Shown piece after piece: positions 42,786 through 64,000 of a DNA stretch of 64,000 bases. A model generated the notes under the pieces. It ran no database searches, was not told the origin of the DNA, and was given only the letters and a program-made list of their open reading frames with translations. The position numbers and the translations under genes are program-made. Within the stretch, counting starts at the first letter, position 1; each line of letters opens with the position of its first letter. The stretch spans positions 1-64,000 of the forward strand of contig NZ_LMHZ01000033.1 of NCBI RefSeq assembly GCF_001428545.1, written 5' to 3'. This DNA is from Noviherbaspirillum sp. Root189. Lineage in GTDB: Bacteria > Pseudomonadota > Gammaproteobacteria > Burkholderiales > Burkholderiaceae_D.

Positions 42786-42860
42786 CTTATGAATTCGCCT
42801 AAACGCATAAACAAAGCCGTTGACCCTTGCCTCGTCGGCTTGGCAATGGCAAATCGACAC

Positions 42861-43511: not shown

Positions 43512-44042
43512 TTAATCCAGGTGCACCGCCCCATCCTCGCCCCATTTCACTTTAGTTATGCCCGGTTCCTCAGCTTCCAGGCGCCGTTTTTCGATCTCCT
43601 GCGGCGTTAGTTCACTGCGGCTGGCCAGGGATTCATTAGCGAGCCGTCGCATTTCTTTTGCCTCATCATGGCGTGTAAAAGCAAGATCAAAGATCTTTTT
43701 AAGGTCATCTACCATCCAAGGCTTGGCAATATAGCGGAACACTTCGGCTTGGTTGATCGCGTTCATCACCGTATCAAATTCGGTTGACGCGCTTAATACC
43801 AAGCGCACAGCATCCGGTTGTATTCCCTTGAACGCCTGAAGAAAATCGGCCCCAGTCATCCCGGGCATTCTATAGTCGGACACGACGACATCAAAAGGGA
43901 CCTCGGCGCTACGCAGTAACGCCTGCTCGGGATCTGTAAAACTTTCTATACGCAATTCGCGATCGGTAAAATGCTGGCGCAATGCACGCTGCAGCGCATT
44001 TATCACATTAATTTCGTCATCGAGCAGTAACAATCGTCTCAT
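43512..44042 (-). CDS. Response regulator with receiver domain and short tail
   Basis: 176 residues. The receiver domain fills residues 1-125 with acidic pair LLLLDDE, phospho-acceptor VVVSDYRMPGMTG and KPW (RYIAKPWMVDD). The tail of about 50 residues is charged and helical (LTPQEIEKRRLEAEEPGITK) and has no recognised output domain. The KPW style links it to all other receivers in this cluster. It is the last gene of the long operon and overlaps the HD-GYP gene by ATGA. Confidence 0.85.
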   Translation of the reverse strand: MRRLLLLDDEINVINALQRALRQHFTDRELRIESFTDPEQALLRSAEVPFDVVVSDYRMPGMTGADFLQAFKGIQPDAVRLVLSASTEFDTVMNAINQAEVFRYIAKPWMVDDLKKIFDLAFTRHDEAKEMRRLANESLASRSELTPQEIEKRRLEAEEPGITKVKWGEDGAVHLD

Positions 44043-45367
44043 GGTCTTTCCTCTACAATATATACGGTAAACACCTCTCCGGAGCTCTGTTCGAAGTCTG
44101 CGATCTGCCGGATCAGGCGCTCGCTCAACACATGGTCTGCTGAAAGCAATAGTGAGCCGTCTTTGGTGACAATGTCGCGCGCCGTAACCATTCCAGGCTG
44201 CAACTCCGGAACGGATAGCGGCTTGCCCTGCATTGAATCTACACCAGTTACACCATTAATAACATCCAGAAACGCAGCGACCACAGCAGCATCGTATCGC
44301 TTGCCACGACTCTCGATGACCAGAGCGGCGGCCTGATCAGGTCGCAGAAAGCGTTGCGAAAGCGTGCCGATCTGTAGATTGTCATAATCGCTGGCAAGCG
44401 CAAGTACGCGCGCGCCGATGGGAATATCAAATCCGGATAAACGGTCCGGAAAACCTTCGCCGTCGAAGCGTTCCTGATGCGAGCGCACGATTTTTGCCGC
44501 GTCCCGCAAATCCTCAAGTGGCATTAGCAACTGTTCGCCGCGTACAGGATATTTACGATATTGTCCGAGATTATCACCATTCATCATGGATACGGGCATC
44601 GTCAGCAACGCATCTGAAAAGCCTATTTTGCCAATGTTATGCAACAACCCTGCAATGAAGACCTCTTGCGTTTCGCGAGCATCCAGTCCAACACGGACGG
44701 CGATTCTGCGTGCCAGATCTGCCACGCGGCGCGAATGGCCAGCGAGGTTGGCGCCGCGCATTTCAATTAGGTTTGAAAACACCTTGATTGACGTCAGAAA
44801 GCTGGTTTTAAGCTTTTCATTGGATGCCAGCAACTCATCGTGCAGTCGGTTGAGCGCTGCCGTACGCAACGCCACCTTATTTTCAAGACCGGCATTTAGG
44901 TTGCGCAACTCTTCGTTTTGCAACTGTGTCAACGTCTCAAGCCGCTGCTTTTCTTGCTCTAACGCTTTGCGCTCCAAAGCGTGACGCACTACGAGGAGAA
45001 TGTCGTTGTCATCCCAAGGCTTAGTGATATACCGATAAATTTCTCCGCGATTGATTGCCCCGATAATCAATTGAATGTCTGCATACCCGGTCAGCAGAAG
45101 GCGTAGCGTATCCGGCCAGCGTGCACGAACGCGTTCAAGGAATTGCGCACCATCCATTTCAGGCATGCGCATATCGGAAATGATCACGTCGACAGGTTGT
45201 GATTCCAGCACTTTCAATCCGGCGTGGCCACTTACCTCAGTGAGCACCTCGTATCCCTGCGGCCGGAACAAGCGCCGCAGTGACGACAGAATGTTGGGCT
45301 CGTCATCCACGCACAGAATTGTTACCGGACGTGCCCCTCCTCGCGGCACATTGTCGGAGCCGATCAT
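44039..45367 (-). CDS. Receiver protein with degenerate HD-GYP domain
   Basis: 442 residues: receiver (Asp in VIISDMRMPEM, KPW present), coiled coil, HD-GYP-like domain from about residue 190, and a C-terminal extension. The catalytic signature is damaged: HD is HN (AGLLHNIGKIGFSDALL), the HPxxG histidine is Tyr (YRKYPVRGEQLL), the HH pair is HQ (RSHQERFDGEGFP) and GYP is GFP. True HD-GYP enzymes hydrolyse c-di-GMP through a metal centre; this one has probably lost that activity and may instead bind a ligand or protein partner. It overlaps genes on both sides by four bases. Confidence 0.85.
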   Translation of the reverse strand: MIGSDNVPRGGARPVTILCVDDEPNILSSLRRLFRPQGYEVLTEVSGHAGLKVLESQPVDVIISDMRMPEMDGAQFLERVRARWPDTLRLLLTGYADIQLIIGAINRGEIYRYITKPWDDNDILLVVRHALERKALEQEKQRLETLTQLQNEELRNLNAGLENKVALRTAALNRLHDELLASNEKLKTSFLTSIKVFSNLIEMRGANLAGHSRRVADLARRIAVRVGLDARETQEVFIAGLLHNIGKIGFSDALLTMPVSMMNGDNLGQYRKYPVRGEQLLMPLEDLRDAAKIVRSHQERFDGEGFPDRLSGFDIPIGARVLALASDYDNLQIGTLSQRFLRPDQAAALVIESRGKRYDAAVVAAFLDVINGVTGVDSMQGKPLSVPELQPGMVTARDIVTKDGSLLLSADHVLSERLIRQIADFEQSSGEVFTVYIVEERP

Positions 45368-46398
45368 ATCCGCTGGTCCTTCTCTTCTTGATCCATTAGT
45401 TGATGCCGGATCGGGAGCGTGATACGAAAGGTAGTACCGCTATCCAACTCACTCTCGACCTCGATACGCCCAAAGTGCTTTTGAATGATGCCATAGGAAA
45501 GCGACAAGCCTAATCCGGTGCCGCTTCCGATTGGCTTCGTAGTGAAGAACGGATCGAAAATACGCGAAAGGATTTCTTTCGGGATCCCAGCACCCGTATC
45601 GGCGATTTCTATCCAGACATACTCACCGGCGGTGCCGGTACGAATTGTGATTTTGCCGCGCACGCTACCGATAGCATGGGCACCGTTGACAACGATATTC
45701 ATGATGACCTGATTGATCTGTGAAGGCAAACATTCAATTTCCGGAACGACGCCGTATTCCTTGACCACGTCGGCCTTGTACTTCACCTCGTTGCTGACGA
45801 TATTCAAAGTGGAATCGATTCCGTCATGGAGATTTGCCCACTGCCATTCCTGATTGGCGTCAACACGGGAAAAATCCTTCAAATCCTGGACAATCTTGCG
45901 TACACGGACAATCCCCTCCCTGGACTCGGCCATCAGTACCGGTATGTCTTCCATCAGAAAATCCAGATCAATACGCTCGCGCGTCGCCTTTGCTTTGGCG
46001 ACAGCCTCCGGCGACCCGATGCTCAGTTCGACATCCTCGTATACTTTCAACATTTCGAGCATGCTTGCGATGTAGTTTTCGAGAGTTCCGAAATTGGAAA
46101 ACACGTAACCGATCGGATTGTTGATCTCATGCGCGACACCAGCTGCAAGCTGGCCAATCGATGCGAGCTTTTCGGACTGTACCAGTTGTTCCTGCGCCAT
46201 CGACAATTTGGCATTCAGTTCTGTCAGCTCCGTATTGCGTCGCAACAGCTCCGCTTCTGCCTCTTCCCGTTTTCGGATGTCGTCTTCGAGACGTTCCTTG
46301 GCCTGCGCCAGTTGTGATGTACGTTTTGCCACTAGATCTTCCAGCTCGTCAAGGCGGGCTGCGTCCATCGACTCATGTGAGTGCGGTGTTGTATTCAT
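45364..46398 (-). CDS. Cytoplasmic sensor histidine kinase
   Basis: 344 residues without membrane segments. An N-terminal coiled coil (about 15-85) leads directly to the H-box ([20 protein letters not shown], phospho-accepting His) and a complete HATPase domain (N-box VNGAHA, G1 ADTGAGIP, F-box DPFFTTK, G2 [11 protein letters not shown]). There is no sensor domain, so the signal probably comes from a partner, perhaps the HDOD protein just upstream. The phosphoryl target is likely one of the two receivers encoded next. Confidence 0.88.
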
Positions 46399-46419
46399 TT
46401 CTCTATCTCGCTCATTGAT

Positions 46420-47262
46420 TCATGCAGCCAAAATCTGGCAGACCTCTTCGAATTCGGATTCCGTTTCACGGAACACACGCTGCAGCGCGGTGCGTTCAAT
46501 GTTCAGGCTGTTCCATGCATTTTCCGCAATGTGCGGGACCAAGTCATCTTCCTGTTCCCCAAGGTCGAGTGCATGCACGACTGCATTGGCGACATGCACG
46601 ACACTCGGGATGTCCCCCAGATCCTGCGCTAACGGAGCATGATGGTTGGCGATTGCCCGCTGGATCAAAGGTGGGAACTTCCAATGCTCTGCCAGCGCGC
46701 GTCCGACAGCGGTATGGTCTACCGCCAGCACGGCGCGCTCAGCGTCAAGCATGTAGCAGTCATTGGCTATTCGATGCAGCCTTGCTTGTTCGTACTGCTG
46801 CGGAAATCGCGTTACCAGAACCAGTTTTCCGATGTCATGCAACAGACCCGAAATAAATGCATAGTCCTGGTTCAAGTTCGACATGCGCGCCAGGCTTTTT
46901 GCACAAAGGGCGGTCCCAATCGCCTGCCGCCAGAACCCCTTGAAATTAAATGAAGTACCTTCTTTGGCACCAAAGTTGTCAATGACTGCTGCAGCGGTAA
47001 TCAGTGCACGCACGCTATCGAACCCCAAGACCGTGATTGCTTGCTGAATTGTCTTGACTTTCGACTGCAGACCATAAAAGGAAGAATTGGCGAGACGCAG
47101 CGTCTTGGCTGCCAGGGCCTGGTCGTGCGACACTTTGTCCGCCAGAACACTGATGCTGATGTCTTTCTGTTCAAAACTCTCGATCAGTTCCATCACGATC
47201 AACGGCAGGGATGGCAGGTCACGGACTTGTTTGACCACATCGGTGAGCGCAATAGCATTCAT
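46420..47262 (-). CDS. HDOD-domain signalling protein
   Basis: 280 residues starting at ATG 47262, which overlaps the previous stop. An HDOD domain fills most of it: VRDLPSLPLIVMELIESFEQ at the start, then LANSSFYGLQSKVKTIQQAI, and the HD-like segment SGLLHDIGKLVLVTRFPQQY. HDOD proteins are HD-superfamily relatives without demonstrated catalysis that often sit in chemosensory and c-di-GMP pathways. Its His-Asp pair is present here, while the neighbouring HD-GYP protein has lost its own. Confidence 0.85.
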   Translation of the reverse strand: MNAIALTDVVKQVRDLPSLPLIVMELIESFEQKDISISVLADKVSHDQALAAKTLRLANSSFYGLQSKVKTIQQAITVLGFDSVRALITAAAVIDNFGAKEGTSFNFKGFWRQAIGTALCAKSLARMSNLNQDYAFISGLLHDIGKLVLVTRFPQQYEQARLHRIANDCYMLDAERAVLAVDHTAVGRALAEHWKFPPLIQRAIANHHAPLAQDLGDIPSVVHVANAVVHALDLGEQEDDLVPHIAENAWNSLNIERTALQRVFRETESEFEEVCQILAA

Positions 47263-47576
47263 GCCACCTCTCCAAGCCGGTATTCCGTCACCCATTGCAA
47301 CAAAAAGCCACAGGCCCGATTGGTCGGACACTTCCTGAAAAGGGATACCAGTCGCTGTTGTACTCGCTCGCGCTCAGCCAATAGATCTGCTTCCGAGATC
47401 GCGTCGTTGACGACCTGTACTGAGTCGATCCCGCGTCGTCGCAAGGACGTTAAAAGCGCATCGGTAAGGACCGTATTTCTCGGCAACAGCACGTCTCCAT
47501 TACCGTGTAGGATATCTTCAAACAGGACCATGCCGGGAACGGTATTATCCAGGTCAAGTCTTAGGTATCTGTTCAT
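47259..47576 (-). CDS. Small protein resembling the N-terminal module of HD-GYP regulators
   Basis: 105 residues, soluble. The first part, LRLDLDNTVPGMVLFEDILH, then LLPRNTVLTDALLTSLRRRG with IDSVQVV, looks like the small beta-domain (DUF3391-like) found before HD-GYP domains and in HDOD clusters. The rest is helical with two cysteines. The resemblance is weak and no function is claimed. It overlaps the HDOD gene by ATGA and lies 45 bases after the ATPase gene. Confidence 0.6.
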   Translation of the reverse strand: MNRYLRLDLDNTVPGMVLFEDILHGNGDVLLPRNTVLTDALLTSLRRRGIDSVQVVNDAISEADLLAERERVQQRLVSLFRKCPTNRACGFLLQWVTEYRLGEVA

Positions 47577-47621
47577 TATTGCCTCATTTTCTGTCTCGTT
47601 GAATTGAAGGGCGGCATTTGC

Positions 47622-49853
47622 TCATTCCGGTCCCAACACCCGGAACACTTCTTCCAACGTAGTCCGGCCGCTTTGTACTTTTGCGAATGCGTCTTCACGC
47701 AGGGTAAGAAATCCACATTCGCGCGCATACTGCGTAATTTCTGTAATTGCCGCTTCCGTAGCAATCAGGTGACGCAGGTGACTGTCCGGCACAAGCACCT
47801 CGTAAAGGCCTATCCGGCCCTTGTACCCGGAGTGGTGACACGCTGGGCAGCCACGACCCTTGAAGGCTGATACGCTAGCCTTGGCGAATTGGCTGCCGAG
47901 GCGTGGAAGCAGTTCCTTGTCCGGCTCGACGGGTTCCCGGCAATTGCCACATATCTGTCGCACCAGGCGTTGTGCAATGATGGCTTCCAGTCCGGTCGCT
48001 ACAACGAATGGTTTAAGTCCCAAGTCAAACAGCCTTGAAATGGTAGCGATTGCCGAATTGGTGTGCAGCGTCGAAAAAACCTGATGGCCGGTGAGCGCGG
48101 CGTGAAACGCCACCTCGGCAGTTTCAAAATCGCGGATTTCGCCCACTAATAGCACGTCGGGATCCTGCCGCAGGATTGCACGCAGAATCAATGGAAAGGT
48201 AAGCCCGATTTTCTCGCGGACCAAAACCTGTCCGGCGGCATCAAGGTAGTATTCGACCGGATCCTCGATCGTGATGTAGTTCTTGTCTGACGTTGCATTG
48301 CTTTGCAACAGGCTGTAGAGCATTGTCGTTTTGCCGCTGCCCGTGGGCCCCGTCGCCAATATGATGCCTTGCGGCTTGTCGCTCGCATGGCGAATCTTCA
48401 AAAGGTCTGTTGCGCCGAAACCAAGTTCCTCGAGCCGCAGAACGGCAGCGTTACGGTCGAGGATACGCATCACAATCTTTTCGCCATTGATGGTCGGGAG
48501 CGTTGAAATCCTGAGATCGACCACGCGCTTCGGAGTCTTCACCGCAAGTCGTCCATCTTGCGGGCGCCGCCGCTCGGAGATATCGAGCTCGGCCATCACC
48601 TTGATGCGCGAAACGATTGACTGATGCATATTATGCGGAATCTGGATCTTGTCAATTAGTACACCGTCGATTCGCAAGCGCACCATGACGTTTTTTGCGC
48701 GTGGCTGAATATGGATGTCGGATGCCCCTAGTCGGATCGCTTCGGCCAGAATTGAATTGACGAGGCGGATAGCGGGCGGATCATCCGTTCCTTTCAACAA
48801 GTCTTCCAGTGACATTGAATCGATATCGTCTTCGATTACGATTTCGATGCCTTCATAGGGATCCTGCGACCCGAAGCTCGATTCAAGGTCCGCAATATCG
48901 GTGGCGCCGCTTTTATAGACATCGCGTATCTTGGCTTGAATCGCCGCGATTGATGCTAACACCGGCTCTACTTCCAGCCCGGTCACAAAGCGCAGATCTT
49001 GCAGCAGTCCCGCATCCAGAGGATCCGCCATTGCCAGTGTTAGGCGTTTGGCTTCGACCTTGAGAGGCGTAACCAATTGCCGTTGGCAAAGCGAGGCGGG
49101 CACGAGCGCTGCCACAGCGGGATCGACTGCAAACTCATTCAACGTCACCGTCTGGAGCATCAGTTCTTTGGCGAGCAAATTATGGATTGCCTTTTCGGCG
49201 GCCCAGCCGCGGTCGACAATCAACTTGATCATCGGATCCTTGCGCTGCGGGTTTTGCTGTAGCCGTGTCAATTCGTGCACTTGCTGGACACTCAGCAAGC
49301 CTTGCTTATTGAGCATCATGGCCAACTGGCTGCGGTTGGTAACACTAAATTTCGCGAGCCGTTCGATTTCGTCGGACTTGCTCCGGTTTTCGCGCGTCAA
49401 TGTATTGTTTTTCTGTTTCAGCTCATACTGTTCCAGTGCGAGCGCTACCGTAACGCGCAAATCGTCGTCGTTCCATGGCTTGAGGATAAATTTGTAGACA
49501 GCGCCTGTTTTCACCGCGCCGATCACCGCATTGACGTCCGCATGGCCGGTAAGCATGATGCGGATCGTATTGGGTTGAACAGCACGTGCCTGCCGCAGAA
49601 TTTCACCACCGTTCGTGCCGGGCATCATATAGTCGGTAATGACGACTTGAAAAGACTCATCGGCAAGCCGTCTTAGCGCATCGGCAGGATCCTGGCAACA
49701 AAGGATTTCATAGTTTTCCTGCCGAAATACTCGCCTTAATGCGGAAAGCACATTCGGCTCATCATCCACCAGCAATATCCGGTACCGTGATGTCCGCAAG
49801 GTATTGTTGCCCAACGGCGGCTGTTCGCCGGTAAAGAGATGGGCATAACTCAT
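47622..49853 (-). CDS. Receiver-fused GspE/PilB-type secretion or pilus ATPase
   Basis: 743 residues. Residues 25-145 are a receiver domain (LLVDDEPNVLSALRRVFRQE, Asp in VVITDYMMPGT, KPW). Then comes a GspE N-domain (about 170-330) and a full hexameric ATPase: Walker A ATGPTGSGKTTMLY, Walker B region DPDVLLVGEIRD, His box STLHTNSA, and the zinc tetracysteine CGNC...CPAC. The N-domain has a sequence (LNKQGLLSVQQVHELTRLQQ) faintly like the c-di-GMP-binding MshEN repeat. No pilin, PilC or secretin gene is nearby, so it must act with a machine encoded elsewhere. The fusion would let phosphorylation gate the motor. Confidence 0.88.
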   Translation of the reverse strand: MSYAHLFTGEQPPLGNNTLRTSRYRILLVDDEPNVLSALRRVFRQENYEILCCQDPADALRRLADESFQVVITDYMMPGTNGGEILRQARAVQPNTIRIMLTGHADVNAVIGAVKTGAVYKFILKPWNDDDLRVTVALALEQYELKQKNNTLTRENRSKSDEIERLAKFSVTNRSQLAMMLNKQGLLSVQQVHELTRLQQNPQRKDPMIKLIVDRGWAAEKAIHNLLAKELMLQTVTLNEFAVDPAVAALVPASLCQRQLVTPLKVEAKRLTLAMADPLDAGLLQDLRFVTGLEVEPVLASIAAIQAKIRDVYKSGATDIADLESSFGSQDPYEGIEIVIEDDIDSMSLEDLLKGTDDPPAIRLVNSILAEAIRLGASDIHIQPRAKNVMVRLRIDGVLIDKIQIPHNMHQSIVSRIKVMAELDISERRRPQDGRLAVKTPKRVVDLRISTLPTINGEKIVMRILDRNAAVLRLEELGFGATDLLKIRHASDKPQGIILATGPTGSGKTTMLYSLLQSNATSDKNYITIEDPVEYYLDAAGQVLVREKIGLTFPLILRAILRQDPDVLLVGEIRDFETAEVAFHAALTGHQVFSTLHTNSAIATISRLFDLGLKPFVVATGLEAIIAQRLVRQICGNCREPVEPDKELLPRLGSQFAKASVSAFKGRGCPACHHSGYKGRIGLYEVLVPDSHLRHLIATEAAITEITQYARECGFLTLREDAFAKVQSGRTTLEEVFRVLGPE

Positions 49854-51094
49854 GTTGCTCTTTCGTTATTGTTTATGGGGAAGTAAAGGAAAACCGTGCT
49901 GCCTTCTCCGACAGCCGTTTCGACGCTAATGCGCCCGCCATGGACATTCACGATATCGCGAGCAACCGTCAGGCCTAGTCCCATGCCCTGCCCGACATCG
50001 CGCGTCGTAAAAAAGGGATCGAAAATGCGCGGCAGGACTTCCTGCTTGATGCCGCAGCCGTTATCGCTGACCGCGACTCTCACTTCATTGCCGGCCATGT
50101 CGCTCATAATGCGGATGCACCCTCCTCCTGCACCAAGCGCCTGGCGCGCATTCAGCAACAGCGAAAACATGACTTGATTCATGCGGCTGAGGTCGCAGAC
50201 GATAGGGTGGAGCGGCTGCAGGTCAGTCTCAATCTGTATATTTCCCGGTAACTGGTCGCCCACTACTGCCGCGGCGGCCCGCACGGCATCATTGAGGTCA
50301 ACCGCCGCGGACGACCCACAGTCGATGCTTGCATAGGCCTTCAGGTTTTCCACTATCCGTGCAATGCGATCCGCACCAGTAATCGATTCGTCTACCAGAC
50401 CCGGGAAATCATCCAGAACGAAGTCGATGTCCTGCTGCTGCCAGAGCGAGTCAGCCTGCTCCTTATCCCCACGGCGGAAGGTGCGCAGCGTATTTTGCAT
50501 CTTGTCCAGATACGACGACGCTGTATTGAGATTACTGCGAATGAAACCCACCGGATTATTAATCTCATGTGCCATGCCTGCAGCTAGACTCCCCACTGAT
50601 GCCATTTTTTCCGATTGGTAAAGCTGACGCTGCGCTCGTTCGATCACCTCCACTTGCGCCTTGACGCGTTGTTCGAGCTGTGCGGCGAGTTCCCGGTATC
50701 GCGCCTCCGATTCCTGCAGGGCAGCATGCTTTTGCTGGAGCGTTTCGTGGTCGGCGTTGACGGCTTCGAGGTGCAGGTCCGCCGCCATTCGGTAACGATA
50801 CGCATTAGTCAACACCATTTCCAACCACCTTGTCGCGGCCTCTCCGTGCTGACGATGGATTTCCGGCACCACTAGACGGCCAATCACTTCGATCTCAATA
50901 GTGAGCGGCACTTCTGCCTGGTTCCCATTCACTTCCAGGCCAGAATCCAATATAGGGACGTCGTCGGCATCCACAATACGCCAGACGTCGCCGATAGTCC
51001 TTCTCAATGCAGCTTCAATTTTGATGCGAGGTATCGTATGCAAAAGCTCGGCAAGGCAGACCTCTCTGTCAAACCATGAAGAACGATTGTTCAT
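49850..51094 (-). CDS. Cytoplasmic histidine kinase next to the MglA-like GTPase
   Basis: 414 residues, no membrane helices. An N-terminal domain of about 110 residues (IPRIKIEAALRRTIGDVWRI) of unknown type precedes a coiled coil, the H-box (GSLAAGMAHEINNPVGFIRS) and an HATPase domain (N-box LLLNARQAL, G1 VSDNGCGIK, F-box DPFFTTRD, G2 GMGLGLTVARD). It overlaps the GTPase gene and the ATPase gene by ATGA, so the three are made together. The neighbouring receiver-ATPase is the obvious substrate candidate. Confidence 0.87.
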   Translation of the reverse strand: MNNRSSWFDREVCLAELLHTIPRIKIEAALRRTIGDVWRIVDADDVPILDSGLEVNGNQAEVPLTIEIEVIGRLVVPEIHRQHGEAATRWLEMVLTNAYRYRMAADLHLEAVNADHETLQQKHAALQESEARYRELAAQLEQRVKAQVEVIERAQRQLYQSEKMASVGSLAAGMAHEINNPVGFIRSNLNTASSYLDKMQNTLRTFRRGDKEQADSLWQQQDIDFVLDDFPGLVDESITGADRIARIVENLKAYASIDCGSSAAVDLNDAVRAAAAVVGDQLPGNIQIETDLQPLHPIVCDLSRMNQVMFSLLLNARQALGAGGGCIRIMSDMAGNEVRVAVSDNGCGIKQEVLPRIFDPFFTTRDVGQGMGLGLTVARDIVNVHGGRISVETAVGEGSTVFLYFPINNNERAT

Positions 51095-51741
51095 GGTCCT
51101 TCTCCTGCGACCGCAACGAAAGCCGCCCGCGAAAGGCCATGCACCGACTCCAGTGAAAACCTGTGGTCGAGTCGATCATGCACGCGCGCGAGCAGCGCAG
51201 TGAATGAATCAAGCACGCCGCCCCCCTCCAGTGCAGACGCAAAAAATAGTGGCCATGGCGCCTTGGCCCAACGCTCATGGATCTCCTGCTCGCTCAGGAT
51301 ATCGGGAAGATCGCGTTTATTGAACTGGACGATGAGTGGCAATGTGGCGAGATCTATCCCCAATGTATTGGCGTTGGCGATGAGGTTTTCAAACGATGCG
51401 CCGTTATTGACTGCCTGGCTACGCTGGGAGTCCGCAACAAAGATGACACCGTCAGCGCGAGAAAGCACGGCTTTGCGTGTTCCATCATGAGCGACCTGTC
51501 CTGGCACGGTAAACAGTTTGAATTTGACAAGAAGACCGGATGGCGCTTTAAAACCGACCGGTAGCAGGTCGAAAAATAGCGTTCGGTCACCTTCGGTTTC
51601 CAAGGTCATCATTTCGCCGATCAGGTCGGCCGACAACAGATCGTGCAAGCGCGTCAGATTAGTCGTCTTGCCGGACATGGCCGGGCCGTAGTAGACCAAT
51701 TTCACGGTCAGCCGCTTACGGTGTTCGTCAAATTCAGCCAT
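51091..51741 (-). CDS. MglA-like small Ras-type GTPase
   Basis: 216 residues starting at ATG 51741. It has the MglA fold motifs: P-loop VYYGPAMSGKTTNL, switch I region MTLETEGDRTLFFDLLP, the MglA-type switch II LFTVPGQVAHDGTRKAVLSR, VIFVADSQRSQ, and NKRD (IVQFNKRDLPDILSE). MglA proteins are polarity switches for gliding and type IV pilus motility. No MglB/roadblock GAP gene is seen in the window. Its position between c-di-GMP enzymes and a kinase/ATPase pair is unusual. I infer polar localisation or pilus control, not proven. Confidence 0.88.
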   Translation of the reverse strand: MAEFDEHRKRLTVKLVYYGPAMSGKTTNLTRLHDLLSADLIGEMMTLETEGDRTLFFDLLPVGFKAPSGLLVKFKLFTVPGQVAHDGTRKAVLSRADGVIFVADSQRSQAVNNGASFENLIANANTLGIDLATLPLIVQFNKRDLPDILSEQEIHERWAKAPWPLFFASALEGGGVLDSFTALLARVHDRLDHRFSLESVHGLSRAAFVAVAGEGP

Positions 51742-51769
51742 GTGGTTTAGCTCCAAGTGAAGACGGACA

Positions 51770-55390: not shown

Positions 55391-55435
55391 ATCGACTCAA
55401 TTAAAATGGCCGTCAGCGCATATTCTGATAGCTGA

Positions 55436-58400
55436 TCACAAGGACGCTGCGCTGCGCATAACTACCTTGGATTCGAACTCACTGAACGCGTCGTCAACCG
55501 CGGAGAACAGTTCTTCCTCATCCCAAGGCTTGGTTAAAAACTTGAAAATGGCACCATGGTTGACTGCATCGGTCACCGACTGCAAATCAGTGTAACCACT
55601 GAGCACCATGCGAACCACCACAGGGTACATATGCTTGACGCGTGAAAGGAATTCGGTACCGCTCATATCCGGCATGCGCTGATCGCAGAGTACGACGCCG
55701 ACTTCGGTGGTTGCCAGTATTTCAAATGCTTCTGCTGCACATGTCGCGACGTACAATGTGTAGTCCTTGTTACGCATGAGGCGCTTGATTGCGGCGACTA
55801 CATTTAGCTCATCGTCGATGAACAATAGAGAGCGCTTGTACGGCTGACGAGGCAGCTTGTCGAGCACGAGGGTCTTCTTCTCGCTCAGCAGGTGCGCGTA
55901 GGCAGCGGCGTCGACCGGCCTGCTGAACAGGTAGCCTTGCATCTCGTCGCAACCATTTTGAGCGAGCAGCGCGAGTTGGCCTTCCGTTTCTACTCCTTCC
56001 GCGATGACCTTCAGTCGCAGGCTGTGCGCCATGGCGATCACGGCCCGTGATATCGACAGATCGTCTGGGTCGGAAATGAGGTCGCGCACAAAAGTTTGAT
56101 CCAGCTTGAGCTTGTCAACCGGGAAGCGCTTCAAATAGTTCAGATTGGAATACCCGGTACCGAAGTCATCGATCGACAGCCTTATACCCATTTGCTTGAG
56201 CGTGTTCAGGATTGCAAAGGTATTTTCCGGGTCTTCCATCGATAGGCTTTCGGTCAGCTCAAGTTCGAGAAGCCTCGGGTCGAGGCCGGTCTCGTCCAGG
56301 ATCCTTTTGACAGTGACCGCGATGTTTTCGGAGAACTGCTTGGCCGACAGGTTGACAGCTACCGGAATTTTCGGCAGTCCCGCACGTTGCCATGCACAAC
56401 TCTGTTCGCAAGCCTTGCGCAACACCCATTCCCCGATCGGCAAAATGAGCCCGGTTTCCTCCGCGAGTCCGATGAATCGCCCCGGCGGTATTAATCCGAG
56501 CTCAGGATGCTGCCAGCGTACGAGGGCTTCCGCTCCGATGATTTTTCCGGACTTCAAATCGACCTGAGGTTGGTAATGAAGCAGGAATTCATTACGTTCG
56601 AGTGCGCGGCGCAATGCGCTCTCAAATTTGAACCGGTCGTTCGCTCCACGATTAAGTTCGGGCATGTAGAACTGATAGCCTTCCGTCTTGTTGGCAAGCG
56701 CGCGGCGCATTGCCATCTCCGCGCCTTGCGATAACAGCTCGAAATCGTCGCCATCATCGGGGAAAATGGTAATCCCCACGCTTGCCGCGATATGCAAATC
56801 ATGATGTTCGAAGTGGAATGGCTCGCTCATTATTGAAAGAATCTGGCGTGCAATCACCGATAGCTCTTTTGGTTCCCTCCTTGTCGCGACAATGGCAAAG
56901 GTCTTGTCGTCAAAGCGTGCCACGCTGTCTTCACCGTTTGCCCATTCTTTAAGGCGGCTGGTAATCTCTTGCAGCAAGGTGTGCTCAGCGTTGCTGCCGA
57001 GGCTTTCCCGTATCAGTGGCAAGCGATCGAAATGCACCAGCAAAAAACCCATCACGTTCTTGTCAGCGAAAATTTTTTCCTGGAGTAGCTTGACCCGGTC
57101 ACGTAACAGAATGCGATTCGGAAGACCGGTAAGAACATCAAAGTTACTGAGATACTGGACTTTTTCTTCCGCGTTCCGCAGTTCGGTAACGTCAATGCCG
57201 GTCCCCAGGAAGTATTCGACTTCCTGACCTGCGTTTCTCAACACAGTCGTCGACCAGATGACATTGCGTATGCTCCCGTCGCGCGCTATCCATTCATCCT
57301 GAACCTGATGCGGCAACTTGTCAAAATCGCCATCAAGGAAAAACTTCCTCGCTGCTTCCGCACGATCCTGCGCCAGGAATATCTCCCAGAACACGCGCTG
57401 GCGTACTTCTTCAAATTTCCACCCCAACACGTTTTCGCAGGCCGGATTAAACATCACAATACGCCCGCTGGTGTTCACCAGGAACACCAGCGCACCTGTG
57501 GTACTAACCACGCCGGAAAGCAGGTTGCGTTCCGCCTGCAGCGCCTCGGCACGTTCTTTGACCAGTGCTTCCATGTTCCGGTAAAGATGTGCTCGCTCAA
57601 GCGCAATGGCGATCTGGTTTCCAACCGTATTGAGCACCCGGAAATTATCTTCTGCGAGCGTCGGGGTCTGGTCGTAGAGCAGGTCCAGCAGCCCAAAGGT
57701 GTGCGACCCTGCAGTCAGCGGAACGCTAATTTGACCACAGCCATTCGAGCCAGTGAGCCGCGACTGCGAGAGAGCGGCGCAGTCGCCAATGACTTTGGCT
57801 GCTCTTAGTTCGCCAGCCATCAGCCTCGTGCGGCACGCGCACTCGACACACGCATCCAGGGCTGCCTGATCCACTCCGAAATCCCTTATGGACGTCACAC
57901 GTAAATTACCTTCCAAGTCGAACAGCTTTATGCACCCGCCAATTACACCGGGCAGGTCAAGTACCCTGTCGAGCGCCATCTCCGAGACCGCCTTCTCGGT
58001 GATGGCGGGGTTCAACGCCTCGGCGATCCTGTATAGGCCTTCCAGCGACTGATAAGAATTGGCGATCTGATTTTGCTGCGCCCTTAACTCCTCGGTCATC
58101 TGTATCGCTTCCTCGTAGGTCGAGATGAGGAGGTCGAATATCTGTTGGCGCTCGGCCGTAATGAAGTGCGTTTGCCCGCCAAGATTGACCTGCATGCCAA
58201 GCTGGACTTTTTCGTTACTGCGCAATTCGCGGTTGGCCAGGATGAGGCGGATGCGTCCGAGCAGGTATTTGCCATCGAAGGGCTTGCGGATAAAGTTGTC
58301 CGCGCCGCAGTCGAGGCCTTTTATGACGTCGTACAAACTGTTCAGTGCGGTGAGAAGAATGACCGGAATGTCGCAAAGGGAACGGTCCTCTTTTAGCTTC

Positions 58401-58624
58401 CGGCACATGTCGAAGCCGTCCATTTCCGGCATCGCAATATCGCTGACGATCAAGGTCGGCTTTGCCGCCCTTGCTTCCGCCAGACCCAGCCGACCATTTT
58501 TTGCCAGCCGCACCTGATAGCCGTCAGACGACAATAAGTGCGCAATCTGATTTGCCTGTGTGTCGCTGTCTTCGACAATCAGGATATCGACGATATGATC
58601 CCGACTGACATCGTTGTTTTTCAT
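55436..58624 (-). CDS. Soluble REC-GAF-PAS-degenerate GGDEF-EAL-REC protein
   Basis: 1,062 residues, cytoplasmic, with receivers at both ends (LIVSDIAMPEM and VVLCDQRMPDM). Between them are a GAF domain with several cysteines (ACVECACRTRLMAGELRAAK), a PAS domain, a GGDEF domain and an EAL domain. The cyclase motif is lost: where GGDEF is expected the sequence is RFDDKTFAIVAT. The EAL domain is complete (GAEALVRWQHP, DDFGTGYSNLNYL), so it should act only as a c-di-GMP phosphodiesterase. It follows cheB by nine bases and is the first c-di-GMP enzyme of the operon. Confidence 0.88.
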   Translation of the reverse strand: MKNNDVSRDHIVDILIVEDSDTQANQIAHLLSSDGYQVRLAKNGRLGLAEARAAKPTLIVSDIAMPEMDGFDMCRKLKEDRSLCDIPVILLTALNSLYDVIKGLDCGADNFIRKPFDGKYLLGRIRLILANRELRSNEKVQLGMQVNLGGQTHFITAERQQIFDLLISTYEEAIQMTEELRAQQNQIANSYQSLEGLYRIAEALNPAITEKAVSEMALDRVLDLPGVIGGCIKLFDLEGNLRVTSIRDFGVDQAALDACVECACRTRLMAGELRAAKVIGDCAALSQSRLTGSNGCGQISVPLTAGSHTFGLLDLLYDQTPTLAEDNFRVLNTVGNQIAIALERAHLYRNMEALVKERAEALQAERNLLSGVVSTTGALVFLVNTSGRIVMFNPACENVLGWKFEEVRQRVFWEIFLAQDRAEAARKFFLDGDFDKLPHQVQDEWIARDGSIRNVIWSTTVLRNAGQEVEYFLGTGIDVTELRNAEEKVQYLSNFDVLTGLPNRILLRDRVKLLQEKIFADKNVMGFLLVHFDRLPLIRESLGSNAEHTLLQEITSRLKEWANGEDSVARFDDKTFAIVATRREPKELSVIARQILSIMSEPFHFEHHDLHIAASVGITIFPDDGDDFELLSQGAEMAMRRALANKTEGYQFYMPELNRGANDRFKFESALRRALERNEFLLHYQPQVDLKSGKIIGAEALVRWQHPELGLIPPGRFIGLAEETGLILPIGEWVLRKACEQSCAWQRAGLPKIPVAVNLSAKQFSENIAVTVKRILDETGLDPRLLELELTESLSMEDPENTFAILNTLKQMGIRLSIDDFGTGYSNLNYLKRFPVDKLKLDQTFVRDLISDPDDLSISRAVIAMAHSLRLKVIAEGVETEGQLALLAQNGCDEMQGYLFSRPVDAAAYAHLLSEKKTLVLDKLPRQPYKRSLLFIDDELNVVAAIKRLMRNKDYTLYVATCAAEAFEILATTEVGVVLCDQRMPDMSGTEFLSRVKHMYPVVVRMVLSGYTDLQSVTDAVNHGAIFKFLTKPWDEEELFSAVDDAFSEFESKVVMRSAASL

Positions 58625-58633
58625 TATTTTCCT

Positions 58634-59704
58634 TCAGTCCTGGAGAAAAGGCAGACCGGGAACGTGCTGTTTGCCCAGAACACGTAATATCCTGCCAATT
58701 TCGGCCGGGGCCAGGATTAGTCTGGCCGCATCGTGCCTGATTGCCTCGCCGGGCATCCCGTAGACGGCCGAGGTAGCGCGGTCCTGCACAATCGTGACGG
58801 CACCGCTGTCCTTGAGTTGCCGAAGCTCCTGTGCACCATCCTTCCCCATTCCGGTCAACTGTACCGCAACGGTACCGCTGCGCAAGTCCTTGTGAATCGA
58901 ACGAAAAAGATACGACACCGAAGGACACATTCCATGCTCTGGCCGATCGGACGATAGTGCGATATGCAAGTCGCGCGTCACTGCGATATGGAATCCGTCG
59001 GGTGCGAGGTAAGCGCATCGGCCGACAAGTTGTTCGCCATGGGCGGCGAGACGCACCGGAAATCCGCTTGCCGAAGACAGCCATTCCACGAATCCGCCGA
59101 TGAAGCCCGCCGACATATGCTGCACGATAACAATGGGTAACGCATAGTCAGGTGGTAACTCGGCCAGAATGTCGCGCAAGACAGTGGGGCCACCGGTAGA
59201 GGCGCCAAGTAGTACCAGCTTGTACGCCTGTTTCTGCGGTGGGGTAGCCTTCACGATTACCTTGCGCGCGTTGTGTCCCGCCCCCTTGGGCCAGCGCCGT
59301 ACAACTCGAACTTCGGCCATAGCCTTTACGGTGCGGATGAGCGCTTGCGCCGTCTGGTTATACGCTGCATTTTCGGGACCGCAAGGACGTTGTACGATCA
59401 CCAGGGCGCCGGCTTCGACGGCCCGGAAGCTGGCGTCGATTTCAGCTTGTATTTCGCTGCCGCTGACGATCACGATCGGCGTCGGGCGGGTTTCCATGAT
59501 CTGTCGCGTGGCTTCGAAGCCGTCTACATTTGGCATATGTAGATCCATCGTGATGACGTCCGGTTTTTTTTCGTGCACCATCCGCAATGCATCTTCGCCA
59601 TCAACGGCGCAACCTACGATCTCCATCTCGGGATCCGAGCCGAGGATGTACACCAGCAGCTCGCGTACCGAAGGAGAGTCGTCCACTACCAGCACCCGGA
59701 TCAT
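58634..59704 (-). CDS. cheB: CheB protein-glutamate methylesterase
   Basis: 356 residues: an N-terminal receiver (VLVVDDSPSVRELLVYILGS, Asp in VITMDLHMPNVDG) and a C-terminal methylesterase domain with the catalytic triad regions LGASTGGPTVLRDILAELP (Ser), VQHMSAGF (His) and TGMGKDGAQEL (Asp). It removes methyl groups from, and deamidates, the MCP for adaptation. A CheR is expected upstream, outside the window. It lies 13 bases after cheA. Confidence 0.92.
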   Translation of the reverse strand: MIRVLVVDDSPSVRELLVYILGSDPEMEIVGCAVDGEDALRMVHEKKPDVITMDLHMPNVDGFEATRQIMETRPTPIVIVSGSEIQAEIDASFRAVEAGALVIVQRPCGPENAAYNQTAQALIRTVKAMAEVRVVRRWPKGAGHNARKVIVKATPPQKQAYKLVLLGASTGGPTVLRDILAELPPDYALPIVIVQHMSAGFIGGFVEWLSSASGFPVRLAAHGEQLVGRCAYLAPDGFHIAVTRDLHIALSSDRPEHGMCPSVSYLFRSIHKDLRSGTVAVQLTGMGKDGAQELRQLKDSGAVTIVQDRATSAVYGMPGEAIRHDAARLILAPAEIGRILRVLGKQHVPGLPFLQD

Positions 59705-59717
59705 TCCACGGTTCTCC

Positions 59718-61982
59718 TCATATCAGGCGTCGGATCGTCTTCAACAGGTTGTCCTGATCGAACGACCCTTTGACGACATACGCATCGGCACCCGCACGCA
59801 AGCCCCGTTCTTTTTCCTGAGACGACTGCAGCGAAGTCACAAGTATTACCGGTAGGTCTTCCGTTTTTGGGTTGGCGCGAATGCGCTCGGTAAGCGCCAG
59901 TCCGTCAAGATGCGGCATTTCGATATCGCTGACTACCGCGTCGAAGTCCTCCTGCCGTAATTTCGATAGCGCCTGCAGGCCGTCGATGGCAGTCTCGACC
60001 GCGTATCCGGCACTTTCCAGTATGTGCTTCAACAACAGCCGCGATGTAATGGAATCCTCCACCACAAGCAACCGCCTAACCGTGGCTGTACTTGCCGGAT
60101 CGCGCTGCGTTGGCGGCGCGTCGTTGCCCGCCTCAAGTCCACGTTTGGCGATATCCTTCAGGGCAAGTATTGGCACAAGACTGCCGTCACCGAGTTGCGC
60201 GGCGCCGGTAATGCAGCGCACGCGACGTAATTGCTTGCCTAGGCTCTTAGGGAGGACCTCTTGTTCGAACAGGACTTCGTCAACCAGCAAAGCAAACGTG
60301 TTTCCGTCGGTATGCGCCACCACGGCAACACCTTCCCCATTGCTTTGGGCGGAGTCGGCACGGTGCAAGCCAAGCAAATTCGCGAGGCGGATGGCCGGCA
60401 CCACGCGCCCCCCAAACAAAAGCGTTTCCCGGTTTTCAACGGTCCGGATATCACCGACCCGGAGCGCGCGCACGGCTTCGACGCCAAACAGCGGGAATAC
60501 GAATCGTGTCCCCTTGGTCCGCAGCACCAATCCTCTCACCGTTGCAAGCCGCACCGGCAGTAACAGCTCGAATGAACATCCTGAGCCCACGGTCGTGTCG
60601 ATACGAAGGCCTCCTCCGATCGACGCCGCTTTTTCCGCGACGACGGCTAAGCCGACGCCACGTCCCGATACGGGAGTGACTTCCACGCTGGTGGAAATAC
60701 CGACGTGCAAGACCAGCTGCAATTTTTGCCGTTCGCTTAGGCCGGTTACCTGTTCTTGATTGACGTTTCCGCTCTTGAGCGCAGCGGCGACAATGGCGTC
60801 GACATCGATACCGCCACCATCGTCGGAAACCGCCACCGCGATCCGGTTGCTGTCGATCTGGGCCACCGCGACCCGTATTTTTCCCGCAGCCGATTTTCCG
60901 TTGGCCAGACGCCTTTCCCTTGGCTCTATGCCATGGTCTACCGCGTTCGTTACCAGATGGATCAATGCTTCGCGAACGATATTCAAGATGCGCCGATCGA
61001 TCTGTATGCTTCCGCCCTCGATGTCGAGAACCACTTCCTTGCCACTGGCGCGAGCCAGGTTCCGGACCAGTCCGGGCAATTGCTCCAGCGCCGATGAACT
61101 CGGCACCATTGCCGTTTCAAGAGTCGCTTCCATAAGTTTGTCGCGAATCCCGACGAAGTGGCGACGGGTCCTGCCCAAGGCGGTCGCCAACTGGCGGCAT
61201 CGAAATTCGAACTGGCCGTCGTCGCCACCAATCTTCACGGCACCACCGGTCATGTCTTTATTGGCATGGGTGGAACGCATGCGCGCACCCGGTTTCCGTG
61301 ACACGGATTCGGCAACCTGCAGCTCATCTTGCCGGTCTGACATATCGTCGGCGAGTTCAAGCAGCTCTGTGATGTGATGCTGCAGTGCCAGTTCGACCGA
61401 AAGGAGCGCTTCGGCTTGATGGCGAATTGCGTCGAGATTCCTTCCCTGAACACGGATGACGTCCGTCTTCGCCACGTCCACCGTATCGGAAATGTCAGGC
61501 AATGCGGCGGCATGTACGGAGTCGGCCGTCCCGGTATCGTTATTTGTTTCAGTCGCCAGTATTTCAGGCTTTTCGGCCTCGGATATTTCCTTGGAGAGGT
61601 GATTCAGCCGCACGCCCAGGGCCGCAACCTGATTGCGTACCCTGCCGGATGGCTCGACCAGGAGCTGGCGGGCCAAGCCGCCGCCTTGATGAAGCAAGTC
61701 GAACTGTTCGGATGTAAGTGTCCGATCTAACGTGCGGAGCGCCGAAAACACGTCCTCCAGCGCATGACAAAGGTGTTCCAGCTCCGTCGAGTTGACGGCC
61801 CTGGCAGCGCCCTTCAGCGTGTGGAGGGTTCTCAGTATGCGTTCTACATAATCCCTTTGGGCCCCGTCAACTCCCTGCTCCAGAACGACGATGTTCGACA
61901 AGATGCTCTGCAGATGGTCCTCCGCTTCAACCCGGAAGGTGTTCTGCAATTTGAGAAGGAACTCTTTATGTGGATCTTGCAT
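59718..61982 (-). CDS. cheA: Hybrid CheA-type kinase: Hpt-kinase-CheW-REC
   Basis: 754 residues. The Hpt domain has phospho-accepting His54 (TLHTLKGAARAVN). A long linker follows without a recognisable CheY-binding P2 domain. Then come dimerisation, an HATPase with VTNAVDHGIEPRERR, SDDGGGIDVD and GRGVGLAVVAEKA, a CheW-like domain, and a C-terminal receiver (AVVSDIEMPHLDG). CheA-REC fusions of this kind are typical of FrzE and of ChpA/PilL-like systems rather than flagellar chemotaxis. No separate cheY is present; the fused receiver and the many receivers downstream are the likely outputs. Confidence 0.9.
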   Translation of the reverse strand: MQDPHKEFLLKLQNTFRVEAEDHLQSILSNIVVLEQGVDGAQRDYVERILRTLHTLKGAARAVNSTELEHLCHALEDVFSALRTLDRTLTSEQFDLLHQGGGLARQLLVEPSGRVRNQVAALGVRLNHLSKEISEAEKPEILATETNNDTGTADSVHAAALPDISDTVDVAKTDVIRVQGRNLDAIRHQAEALLSVELALQHHITELLELADDMSDRQDELQVAESVSRKPGARMRSTHANKDMTGGAVKIGGDDGQFEFRCRQLATALGRTRRHFVGIRDKLMEATLETAMVPSSSALEQLPGLVRNLARASGKEVVLDIEGGSIQIDRRILNIVREALIHLVTNAVDHGIEPRERRLANGKSAAGKIRVAVAQIDSNRIAVAVSDDGGGIDVDAIVAAALKSGNVNQEQVTGLSERQKLQLVLHVGISTSVEVTPVSGRGVGLAVVAEKAASIGGGLRIDTTVGSGCSFELLLPVRLATVRGLVLRTKGTRFVFPLFGVEAVRALRVGDIRTVENRETLLFGGRVVPAIRLANLLGLHRADSAQSNGEGVAVVAHTDGNTFALLVDEVLFEQEVLPKSLGKQLRRVRCITGAAQLGDGSLVPILALKDIAKRGLEAGNDAPPTQRDPASTATVRRLLVVEDSITSRLLLKHILESAGYAVETAIDGLQALSKLRQEDFDAVVSDIEMPHLDGLALTERIRANPKTEDLPVILVTSLQSSQEKERGLRAGADAYVVKGSFDQDNLLKTIRRLI

Positions 61983-61990
61983 GGCGACGC

Positions 61991-63628
61991 CTAGAGCTTG
62001 AACCTTTCGCTCATTTGCTTGAGTTTCTGACCTAGCTCATTCAGGTTTTGCGCCGACATTTCAGACTGTTTCGAGCCAGCTGCATTCTCGACGCTTACCT
62101 GCTTAATGTTTTCCATTGCTAGCGCCACCTGATCCATTCCGACCAGCTGCTGTTGGCTGGAAGCAGCAATCTGCGCCGCTGCCTGGGCCGCATCCGTGAT
62201 GCTTTCCGACAAAATCGTGATCGCGTTGCCTGCCTCAGTGGTCTTTTCGACGCCGTTGGCGACCGCGCGCGCTCCTTGTTCGGTAGTCATGACGGCGGCA
62301 CTGATGGCCTTCTGGATATCGCCGAGCAGCACGCGCACCTGCTTGGTCGCTTGCCTGGACTGGTCGGCCAAGTCTTTAACTTCATGCGCAACGACTGCGA
62401 ATCCCTTGCCGTAGTCGCCGGCTTTGGCCGCCTCGATGGCGGCATTGACCGCCAATAGGTTCGACTGCTCGGCGAGGCCGCCGACTGCCACGATGATTTC
62501 GCCGATCGCCTCGCTGCGCTCGCTCAGGCGCACGATCGTCTCGGCAATCGATTCCATTTGCTGCTGGACGGTTTGCATCCCTTCGATACCGTCCTCGATC
62601 GCCGTGCGTCCGGCGTCCGCTGTCCGTGCCGCCTGTTGTGCCGCATCCGATACCATGCGCGCCTTCTGGCTTGCCAGCAGCGCGGTTTGCTTGACTTCTT
62701 CGACTGTCGCGGTGGTCTCGCTCACTGCTGCCGCCGTTTCGGTCGCTCCGGCGGATGCCTGCATGGTCCCGGCGAGAATTTCGCTTGCCGCCGCGCTGAG
62801 CGTGACAATGCCGGTGTTCGTCTCTCTCATCAGTTGCTTCCAGGCGGTGACCATTGAATCAAGGGCGCGCAGCAGCTGGCCCACTTCGTCCAGGGAATTC
62901 GACGGCGACACTTTTACCGTCAAGTCCCCTGTCGCGATTTGCTGGGCAATCGCAGTTGCTTGCCGCAGCGGCGTCGCAATAATGCGGTCCAGCCCGACAA
63001 CCAGCGCCAACCCAATCAGAATGGCAATAATGTTTGCGGCAACCAGCGTGGCCTGCGCATTGTCAACCAGCGTTTCGGAGTCGCGCATGCGTTTCTCGGC
63101 TTCGGCAAACTGCTGAGCGCCGATCTGGTCCGCGATTGCTCTCAGTTCCTCGAATTTTTCACGCAAGGAACCGACGATTGCTGTGCCCGCTTCGCTTCGT
63201 TTTCCGGATTTGATCAGGGGAAGCACCTCGCGATCACGAATCCCGGCATACTCTCTGTATGCATCGTTGAGCCGTTCGAATTGCTGTCGAAAATCGGCAT
63301 CGTTCTCTCTACGGCCTGAAAGCTTGTTCAAGCGGGAGACGATTTCGGCCGACTCCTGTTCGAGATTCTGGAGGAACTTCGGTTGCTCGGATACATCGGC
63401 AACGGACAGCGATAGCAGGACAACACGTTCACGATTGATAACATTGCGTAAGGCTGTCAAGTCGAAGGCAATTGCAAAGTCGTCTCGAAACAATGCTTGC
63501 TGCGACAGCTTCAATCGCTCGGCATCGCGATAAGCAGTAGCGCTGACTCCCGCCATCAACGCTACGATGAGTCCAAATGCCAGCAGCAGTTTCAGACGAG
63601 TGCTGAGGTTCAATAATATGCTCATCAT
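61991..63628 (-). CDS. Methyl-accepting chemotaxis protein
   Basis: 545 residues: first helix ([19 protein letters not shown]), a periplasmic four-helix-bundle sensor (about 35-185), second helix ([20 protein letters not shown]), HAMP and the methyl-accepting signalling domain with the conserved hairpin tip [20 protein letters not shown]. There is no CheR-binding pentapeptide at the C-terminus. It is the only receptor in the cluster and presumably feeds the hybrid CheA. Either of two adjacent ATGs could be the start. Confidence 0.92.
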
Positions 63629-63668
63629 GTATCCAATCCTATTCAGCAGTTTTTTGTTTTATCGGTAT

Positions 63669-64000
63669 TCAATCGATGTCGACGACCAGCCTGGCATCGG
63701 ATAATAGTTGGACTGCATCCAGGACTGCGGTCCGATCCGTCGCCACACCCTTCAAATAAGTCTTTTCGATATTGGCCAAGGTCGGCAAATTGGGCTGAAG
63801 TGATTCCAGCGGATACCGCTCCAGTCCTAATATTGCTTCGGCAAGAATGCCGAACTCCATTGACTCTCCCCGCAGTACGACGATGGCCTCAGGTTCGGCC
63901 AGACCCGACAGCGGCAAATCAAGCAATGAGCGCAGGTCGATCACGGACAGTACGTCTCCGTATACGGCGATGATGCCGACAACGTAATCCGGGACGCCCG
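63669..64000 (-). CDS. CheW-domain protein (runs off the window)
   Basis: About 110 C-terminal residues are visible. The frame runs to the window edge: GVPDYVVGIIAVYGDVLSVI, then DLRSLLDLPLSGLAEPEAIV and LVVDID at the end. This is the second half of a CheW fold, the coupling protein linking the receptor to CheA. The start is outside. It is 40 bases upstream of the MCP gene and is the first visible gene of the long operon. Confidence 0.85.
   Translation of the reverse strand, partial: GVPDYVVGIIAVYGDVLSVIDLRSLLDLPLSGLAEPEAIVVLRGESMEFGILAEAILGLERYPLESLQPNLPTLANIEKTYLKGVATDRTAVLDAVQLLSDARLVVDID

Follow-up and report, generated by a model that had tools for sequence, protein, structure and literature searches.

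A conserved three-gene cassette, here called the triad or module C, was identified by computational analysis in a 64-kb stretch of the Noviherbaspirillum sp. Root189 genome (contig NZ_LMHZ01000033.1; the whole of this stretch is referred to as the window). Its genes encode a predicted Group 1 MglA-type GTPase, a histidine kinase (HK1) and a PilB-like ATPase with an N-terminal receiver (REC) domain. The triad is a unit conserved in many proteobacteria, and confidence in its module structure and conservation is high. At slightly under an even chance, the cassette makes a second type IV pilus extension motor that is switchable, being gated by phosphorylation and linked to a GTPase. Directly observed are gene content, conservation, adjacency, intact catalytic residues, the separate clade formed by the ATPases, co-occurrence with PilB and the absence of MglB from 37 of 40 carriers. 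Most of what is known about how small GTPases reach this motor comes from Myxococcus. The three genes are:

51091-51741, minus strand: MglA-type Ras-like GTPase, counted from an ATG start (the open reading frame, ORF, reaches a TTG at 51756)
49850-51094, minus strand: histidine kinase HK1, with HisKA and HATPase_c domains, an HEINN box and, at the N-terminus, a small alpha/beta domain
47622-49853, minus strand: REC-MshEN-T2SSE protein, a PilB-like ATPase with an N-terminal receiver (Pfam)

At E 1e-20 or better, and with the own genome included each time, the GTPase was matched in 10 of 294 genomes sampled from the family, 9 of 369 from the class and 6 of 398 from the phylum, one of these last six being only 31% identical; 2 of the 15 genus members among those listed had a match. 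The order sample gave matches in 50 of 300 genomes at E 0.001, of which 22 were strong (E <1e-80, at least 62% identity) and the remainder weak (33% identity at most), and a scan of a contig database gave 18 loci. After removal of duplicates (L100, which equals L014, and L125, which equals L029), 58 distinct neighbour loci were available; the 53 with at least 3.3 kb of downstream DNA were counted and 5 were left out. In 48 of the 49 loci where GTPase identity is at least 55%, the genes for GTPase, kinase and REC-ATPase are consecutive on one strand (tblastn). In 47 of these 49 loci, most of the ATPase can be aligned with no interrupting stop. The exception, L126 (G916:C64), has a 200-aa ORF at 9934-10536 that matches both the GTPase and the ATPase, an apparent deletion remnant of the triad. 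Carriers include Massilia (among them Massilia frigida), Methylobacillus (sp. MM3), Methylotenera and a Gammaproteobacteria metagenome-assembled genome, together with Desulfosarcina and Desulfatitalea (including Desulfatitalea alkaliphila), which we take to be Desulfobacterota. A preliminary description of this DNA had tied a pilus-type motor gene to an MglA-type GTPase gene; as a lead this is borne out, both genes and the kinase gene being kept together in the 48 loci. A DUF6901 gene was also seen just downstream of the REC-ATPase in three class-sample loci (L121, L122 and L124).

A profile built from the window GTPase and 55 relatives matches MglA structures at E 2e-60 to 9e-58, the next match being Arf at 2e-7. 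The G1 motif, Arg58, Thr59, TVPGQ and NKxD are invariant in all 56 aligned sequences. (Left out of the alignments were L026 for A3, L071 for A1 and L071 and L075 for A2; the relatives covered were 55/56, 41/42 and 45/47.) Group 1 MglA proteins are marked by TVPGQ in G3 and an arginine beside the G2 threonine (PMC4316618; this and the other papers cited here were drawn on in part), and the triad GTPase has both the TVPGQ and the Arg finger. Coupling to MglB (Roadblock) is described as common in the MglA family, not universal (PMC4316618). A search for Roadblock (PF03259) found none in the own genome and none in 37 of 40 triad carriers, the other 3 having one; as a control, the same search gave matches in 3 of 14 genomes. 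Because its strong matches are to MglA only, the Group 1 marks are present and 37 of 40 carriers lack MglB, the triad GTPase is assigned, as judged from its sequence, to the orphan Group 1 MglA-type proteins. Group 1 neighbourhoods vary widely and mglA of Myxococcus is not near the genes of its partners (PMC4316618); the triad neighbourhood is not described in the main-text sections of that paper that were covered. Plasmid-borne spread was considered and rejected: among 72,556 plasmid records, the GTPase at E 1e-10 gave a single match, a 40% identical Deinococcus protein, and CheA (E 1e-60) gave 31, all below 60% identity.

The N-terminal domain of HK1 was modelled by AlphaFold with a pLDDT of 91.7; Foldseek returned weak GAF-like hits and, against the PDB, no match below E 0.001. 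The idea that this domain is a fused MglB-like (Roadblock) GTPase-activating protein was dropped, no MglB being among the matches listed (50 of 374).

The ATPase retains its conserved residues. Receiver positions D30, D31, D74, T102 and K125, the Walker A sequence GPTGSGKT and the CxxC cysteines are invariant in 46 sequences, and the best solved-structure match is PilB (445 bits), GspE reaching 413 bits on a shorter chain. In a FastTree phylogeny of 93 sequences rooted on TfpB, the triad ATPases are monophyletic (48/48, support 0.995) and separate from PilB (39/39, support 1.0). The triad clade has the L029 MshEN-T2SSE protein as its sister (support 1.0). Deeper branches between motor classes are weak (support 0.22 to 0.54), and the wider placement of the clade is therefore tentative. 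The own genome also encodes, at L007 (C45:148970-152926, positions 433-2799), a 788-aa GAF-MshEN-T2SSE motor ATPase with a sensor domain, which groups with PilB in the tree (support 0.958).

The MshEN receptor for cyclic di-GMP (c-di-GMP) consists of tandem 24-residue RLGxx...LxxxLxxQ motifs, and MshEN is already known together with REC in other proteins (PMC5013675). In the window ATPase this motif is degenerate, the first RLG being QLA and the second PMI; among 46 triad ATPases, Gln replaces the first Arg in 39 and Ala replaces the Gly in 41. When the spacer length is allowed to vary, the window ATPase agrees with the motif at 10 of 22 positions and its 47 relatives at 9 to 16, against 8 to 12 for 39 PilB proteins, taken as background, and 18 for the MshE-like ATPase of the own genome. 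The MshE-like c-di-GMP control suggested in the preliminary description thus finds no support in the motif, and direct c-di-GMP control of the window ATPase is set aside as a prediction on this motif test. Since the Desulfatitalea ATPases L023 and L025 retain more of the motif (14 and 16 of 22), c-di-GMP binding may be ancestral in the triad ATPases.

Genome content associates the triad with pilus machinery. A true PilB above cut-off is encoded by all but one of 40 triad genomes (39 of 40); the exception is an assembly in 420 contigs. Within the order sample PilB is present in 22/22 carriers vs 144/278 non-carriers (Fisher p 1.1e-6), and at the genus level in 13/13 carrier genera vs 62/122 others (p 2.9e-4). 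Across 39 genomes, GTPase and ATPase distances remain correlated once the PilB tree is accounted for (partial Mantel r 0.51, permutation p 0.001). Both also track the PilB tree (r 0.71 and 0.84), which suggests mostly vertical descent of the triad with many losses. Neither the window contig nor the 57 neighbour loci tested yielded a PilC/GspF relative. A second extension motor, TfpB, is known from Acinetobacter baylyi (PMC8213720), and such a motor can share the pilus machine with PilB (PMC8213720, PMC11656802). Separately, in Massilia frigida and relatives (L014, L097 and L101) the triad GTPase is preceded, at a distance of about 0.5 to 4 kb, by a T2SSE gene; the one upstream of the L101 triad passes the TfpB cut-off.

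By the proposed mechanism, the motor would be the REC-MshEN-T2SSE protein, and HK1 would phosphorylate its receiver and thereby switch on or off either the ATPase itself or its docking. The GTP form of the MglA-type GTPase would contact the ATPase and either position the motor at the pilus machine or activate it there, in the manner of MglA with the pili of Myxococcus. With no platform protein of its own, the motor would use the standard PilC-based type IVa pilus (T4aP) machine of the cell alongside PilB. Module B (below) would feed the motor with two-component and c-di-GMP-type input, and in this genome the Wsp-like cluster A, placed in front, would feed it too, the three modules being co-regulated. 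Put forward tentatively, as a prospect that falls short of even, is a more specific form of this scheme, in which the GTPase, its own kinase and the receiver-fused PilB-class motor form one complex, two switches (phosphorylation and GTP) gate extension, and the input modules are swappable.

The triad lies within a longer run of genes, a predicted signalling operon. The preliminary description had reported 14 genes on the minus strand at 43512-64000, and their position, order, strand and domains were all confirmed (Pfam); its spacing of 0-45 bp was recomputed as gaps of -4 to +45 bp with five 4-bp overlaps. From cheW to the lone receiver, the 13 gaps are 40, 8, 13, 9, 45, 28, -4, -4, 45, -4, 21, -4 and -4 bp, using the ATG starts at 51741 (GTPase) and 47262 (HDOD). 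The run continues past the window edge with cheR and a second cheW upstream, giving 16 genes in all. Ahead of these, separated by a gap of 478 bp, is a gene matching DUF6429, and the contig stops 3.6 kb past the window edge. Pattern scans for promoters and terminators over 42500-62000 showed no excess over shuffles (simple terminator scan: 16 candidates against a shuffle mean of 20.3). The 16-gene run is three units: the triad (module C), a Wsp-like chemosensory cluster that ends in a GGDEF-EAL hybrid (module A) and a set of six genes (module B). Module A comprises:

contig 65619-66065, outside the window: second cheW, 148 aa, with a gap of 1 bp to cheR
contig 64298-65617, outside the window: cheR, 439 aa, with a gap of -4 bp to the window cheW
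63669-64000, minus strand: CheW, 210 aa, extending to contig position 64301
61991-63628, minus strand: methyl-accepting chemotaxis protein (MCP) with 4HB sensor and HAMP
59718-61982, minus strand: CheA-REC hybrid kinase (Hpt, HATPase_c, CheW, Response_reg)
58634-59704, minus strand: CheB
55436-58624, minus strand: REC-GAF-PAS-GGDEF(degenerate)-EAL-REC output protein

Module B comprises:

51770-55390, minus strand: CHASE-PAS-GGDEF-EAL-REC protein, the first gene of the module, with GGDEF and EAL motifs present
47259-47576, minus strand: 105-aa protein with no Pfam family
46420-47262, minus strand: HDOD protein (HDOD at 206 bits on the ORF from 47331), with an ATGA overlap with the preceding gene
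45364-46398, minus strand: histidine kinase HK2 (HATPase_c, HEINN box)
44039-45367, minus strand: REC-HD-GYP protein of the NosR family with a degenerate active site (NF053512, 573.2 bits, cut-off 400)
43512-44042, minus strand: lone receiver with a C-terminal extension (Response_reg)

Several of these proteins carry altered output domains. The GGDEF domain of the module A output protein is degenerate in the window (RFDDKTF), a point that had gone unmentioned; GGDEF is lost in 6/6 sequences of this hybrid and the EAL motifs are kept. The module B hybrid has both motifs in the window and variants in some aligned relatives. The HD-GYP protein is degenerate, as first described: it has HN for HD (N244) and Y273 for a ligand His, and with these metal ligands replaced the window protein failed the active-site test. 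Across 43 aligned sequences, window included, N occurs in 8, D is kept in 34 and H in 35. Relatives of the 105-aa protein lie beside 9 of the 49 other triads and in L187 and L192; in our reading, the protein may resemble the C-terminal tail of REC-HD-GYP proteins.

The modules were compared with their counterparts in other genomes. Neighbours were counted within 9 kb of 49 triads (window excluded, remnant L126 included; some contigs end sooner). On the same strand, REC-HD-GYP is found near 35 of them, a lone REC near 36, HDOD near 21, GGDEF-EAL near 19 and the small protein near 9; on either strand, CheA is found near none and CheR or CheB near one (L126), and L119 has a lone CheB match just beyond 9 kb. 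All nine genes of B and C occur in the window order in L098 and L099, and in L019 (Methylobacillus) and L020 (Methylotenera) module B genes are placed before the triad. The module B GGDEF-EAL-REC orthologue occupies the same place in L095, L098 and L099, and also in L187 and L189, where there is no triad. For module A, a CheA-REC search of 245 family genomes (E 1e-110) gave 9 matches, own included. In 5 of the 8 others (G313, G441, G408, G393 and G472), the same GGDEF-EAL hybrid comes directly after CheW-CheR-CheW-MCP-CheA-CheB, the G393 version being without the last REC; G317 and G487 have more distant clusters and G496 has just a 3.4-kb contig. An orthologue of the output protein (58-67% identity) adjoins CheB in L185-L189. 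Module A continues into all six module B genes in window order in G408, with the triad absent, and in G472 it is followed by GGDEF-EAL-REC, an opposite-strand ORF, HDOD, a kinase and a REC protein. G441 is listed without a GTPase match, and G313, G408, G393 and G472 presumably lack one likewise.

Because A+B (2 genomes without C) and B+C (2 loci without A, in exact window order) recur while A+B+C was seen in the window only, A, B and C are separable units that have repeatedly been joined pairwise. The grouping is also more than chance, being conserved in other genomes. The single pathway proposed in the preliminary description is thus borne out in part only, its pairwise linkages recurring and its complete union having been seen once; the neighbourhood comparison answers the concern that the block is a mosaic conserved nowhere, in that its pieces are conserved elsewhere and the full union was not found in another genome. 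It is possible, if on balance doubtful, that the 16-gene run is a mosaic whose modules share a transcript, or just a strand, and that A does not signal to C. The absence of CheA from all 49 other triad neighbourhoods, the lack of module B behind module A in G313, G441 and G393 within the DNA read, and transposase-type genes a few kb from the run are consistent with this. Against it stand the recurrence of A+B and B+C with matching gene order, the window junctions of 45 bp or less, and G916, where a different chemosensory cluster (CheA without REC) lies ahead of module B and the triad remnant.

Other genes in the window were noted alongside the run. A gene for a 1617-aa dCache-PAS-GAF-GGDEF-EAL-REC protein (38007-42860, minus strand) is located 651 bp downstream and probably forms a unit of its own. 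Several kb past the downstream end are transposase- and integrase-type genes and an HTH protein (31833-32582 and 35381-35956, minus strand; 33766-35043, plus strand). Further away are a TIR-domain protein (7051-8037, plus strand), metal-efflux-type genes (RND pump, CusB/CusF-like; 12925-17639, minus strand) and a cation efflux family protein (5281-6336, minus strand).

Several observations weigh against reading module C as a pilus motor cassette. The window ATPase scores below the PilB equivalog cut-off (TIGR02538, 554.1 against 675.65 bits), where the PilB of its own genome reaches 839.5, and its GspE score is almost the same (TIGR02533, 548.3 bits, also below the cut-off of 630.25). It likewise falls below the TfpB cut-off (NF053534, 439 against 850 bits), and the own genome encodes proteins that pass each of the three. 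None of the 4 loci at 50-53% GTPase identity has the triad, the ATPase of L022 (Desulfosarcina) reads as three pieces, and in L130 (G1288:C2, 51% identity) the third gene encodes REC-PAS-GGDEF-EAL-REC instead of a REC-ATPase. Carriers without MglB leave the switching-off of the GTPase without an assigned partner. In the order sample, 144 of 166 PilB-bearing genomes are without the triad, the co-occurrence with PilB is confounded by shared ancestry, and ATPase distances track those of PilB (r 0.84). Finally, in L066 (G028:C2, 1-5691, plus strand) a convergent cluster about 0.4 kb past the triad codes for an N-methylated prepilin, a secretin and a PilN domain and includes the end of a T2SSE gene, which is evidence for a type IV filament link but also for a filament other than T4aP. 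The PilB, distance and L066 links are associations, not proof.

That the ATPase powers another type IV filament, such as type II secretion or an MSHA-like pilus, is unlikely; its near-equal GspE and PilB scores, the L066 cluster beside a triad, and the presence in the own genome of GspE and of an MshE-like ATPase whose neighbour is PilC/GspF-like would fit such a role, but the L066 cluster has a T2SSE gene of its own, a prepilin-type motif was found in just 1 of 57 neighbour loci (L066; secretins were not sought in the others), and PilB genomes are enriched among triad carriers. Quite improbable is that the protein is a regulatory partner instead of a motor, one that joins PilB in mixed rings or takes up PilC and thereby restrains extension when phosphorylated: on/off control would fit a motor ATPase that carries a receiver, and no platform gene lies beside it, but Walker A and the other ATPase motifs are invariant in the 46 sequences, which disfavours a pure decoy because a decoy would be expected to lose some of them.

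No description of the MglA-kinase-REC-PilB gene set was found in the titles, abstract openings and main-text passages covered, which took in a minority of subscription papers. If the reading is right, the triad would be a widespread, as yet unnamed control unit, into and out of which lineages swap Wsp-like chemosensory and HDOD/HD-GYP c-di-GMP-type inputs, and its ATPase would join PilB, TfpB and MshE as a candidate extension motor class, one in which a phosphorylation switch is built in. Besides the window, 48 loci, some of them in named strains, have the GTPase, kinase and motor genes as a single conserved set, and the question of how the GTPase reaches the motor is therefore directly testable.

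Comparison with known systems places each module. Module A has the wspA-F content (two CheW, CheR, MCP, CheA-REC, CheB and a c-di-GMP-type output; PMC8552884), its CheR giving weak, below-cut-off matches to TPR proteins. It differs from Wsp in synteny, the MCP lying between the window CheW and CheA instead of first, and in output, a degenerate GGDEF with an intact EAL standing in place of the diguanylate cyclase WspR or WspH. The Frz system, which has a FrzCD-type receptor and FrzZ as output, shares the CheA-REC fusion with the window. The Frz analogy drawn in the preliminary description was set aside as a working idea on gene content, without comparison to Frz sequences: Wsp-type content fits better, CheA is near none of the 49 other triads, and 3 of the 8 other CheA genomes have no module B behind this cluster. 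The window receptor (4HB and HAMP) is presumably unlike FrzCD.

Module B resembles NosK-NosR, in which an HEINN kinase phosphorylates NosR with an altered HD-GYP (PMC12570481): HK2, like HK1 of module C, is an HEINN kinase, and the REC-HD-GYP protein passes the NosR family cut-off with an altered site. It differs in that a FIST (NosP) gene is absent from the 16 genes. Because module B has NosR- and NosK-like proteins, a FIST-domain (NosP-type) protein in L069 (G295:C90, 4054-5247, plus strand), encoded roughly 1 kb beyond the triad and on the strand opposite to it, is of interest.

In Myxococcus xanthus, MglA-GTP activates polar pili through SgmX (PMC7668184). The triad GTPase shares the Group 1 marks and a proposed link to pilus motor activity, but its gene is locked to those of a kinase and a REC-ATPase, and MglB is absent from most carriers. 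With MshE, the triad ATPase shares the MshEN-T2SSE architecture and differs in its degenerate c-di-GMP motif. Like TfpB beside PilB, it is an extra extension-type ATPase of a phylogenetically distinct clade in PilB-bearing genomes; unlike both, it carries an N-terminal receiver and has fixed GTPase and kinase partners.

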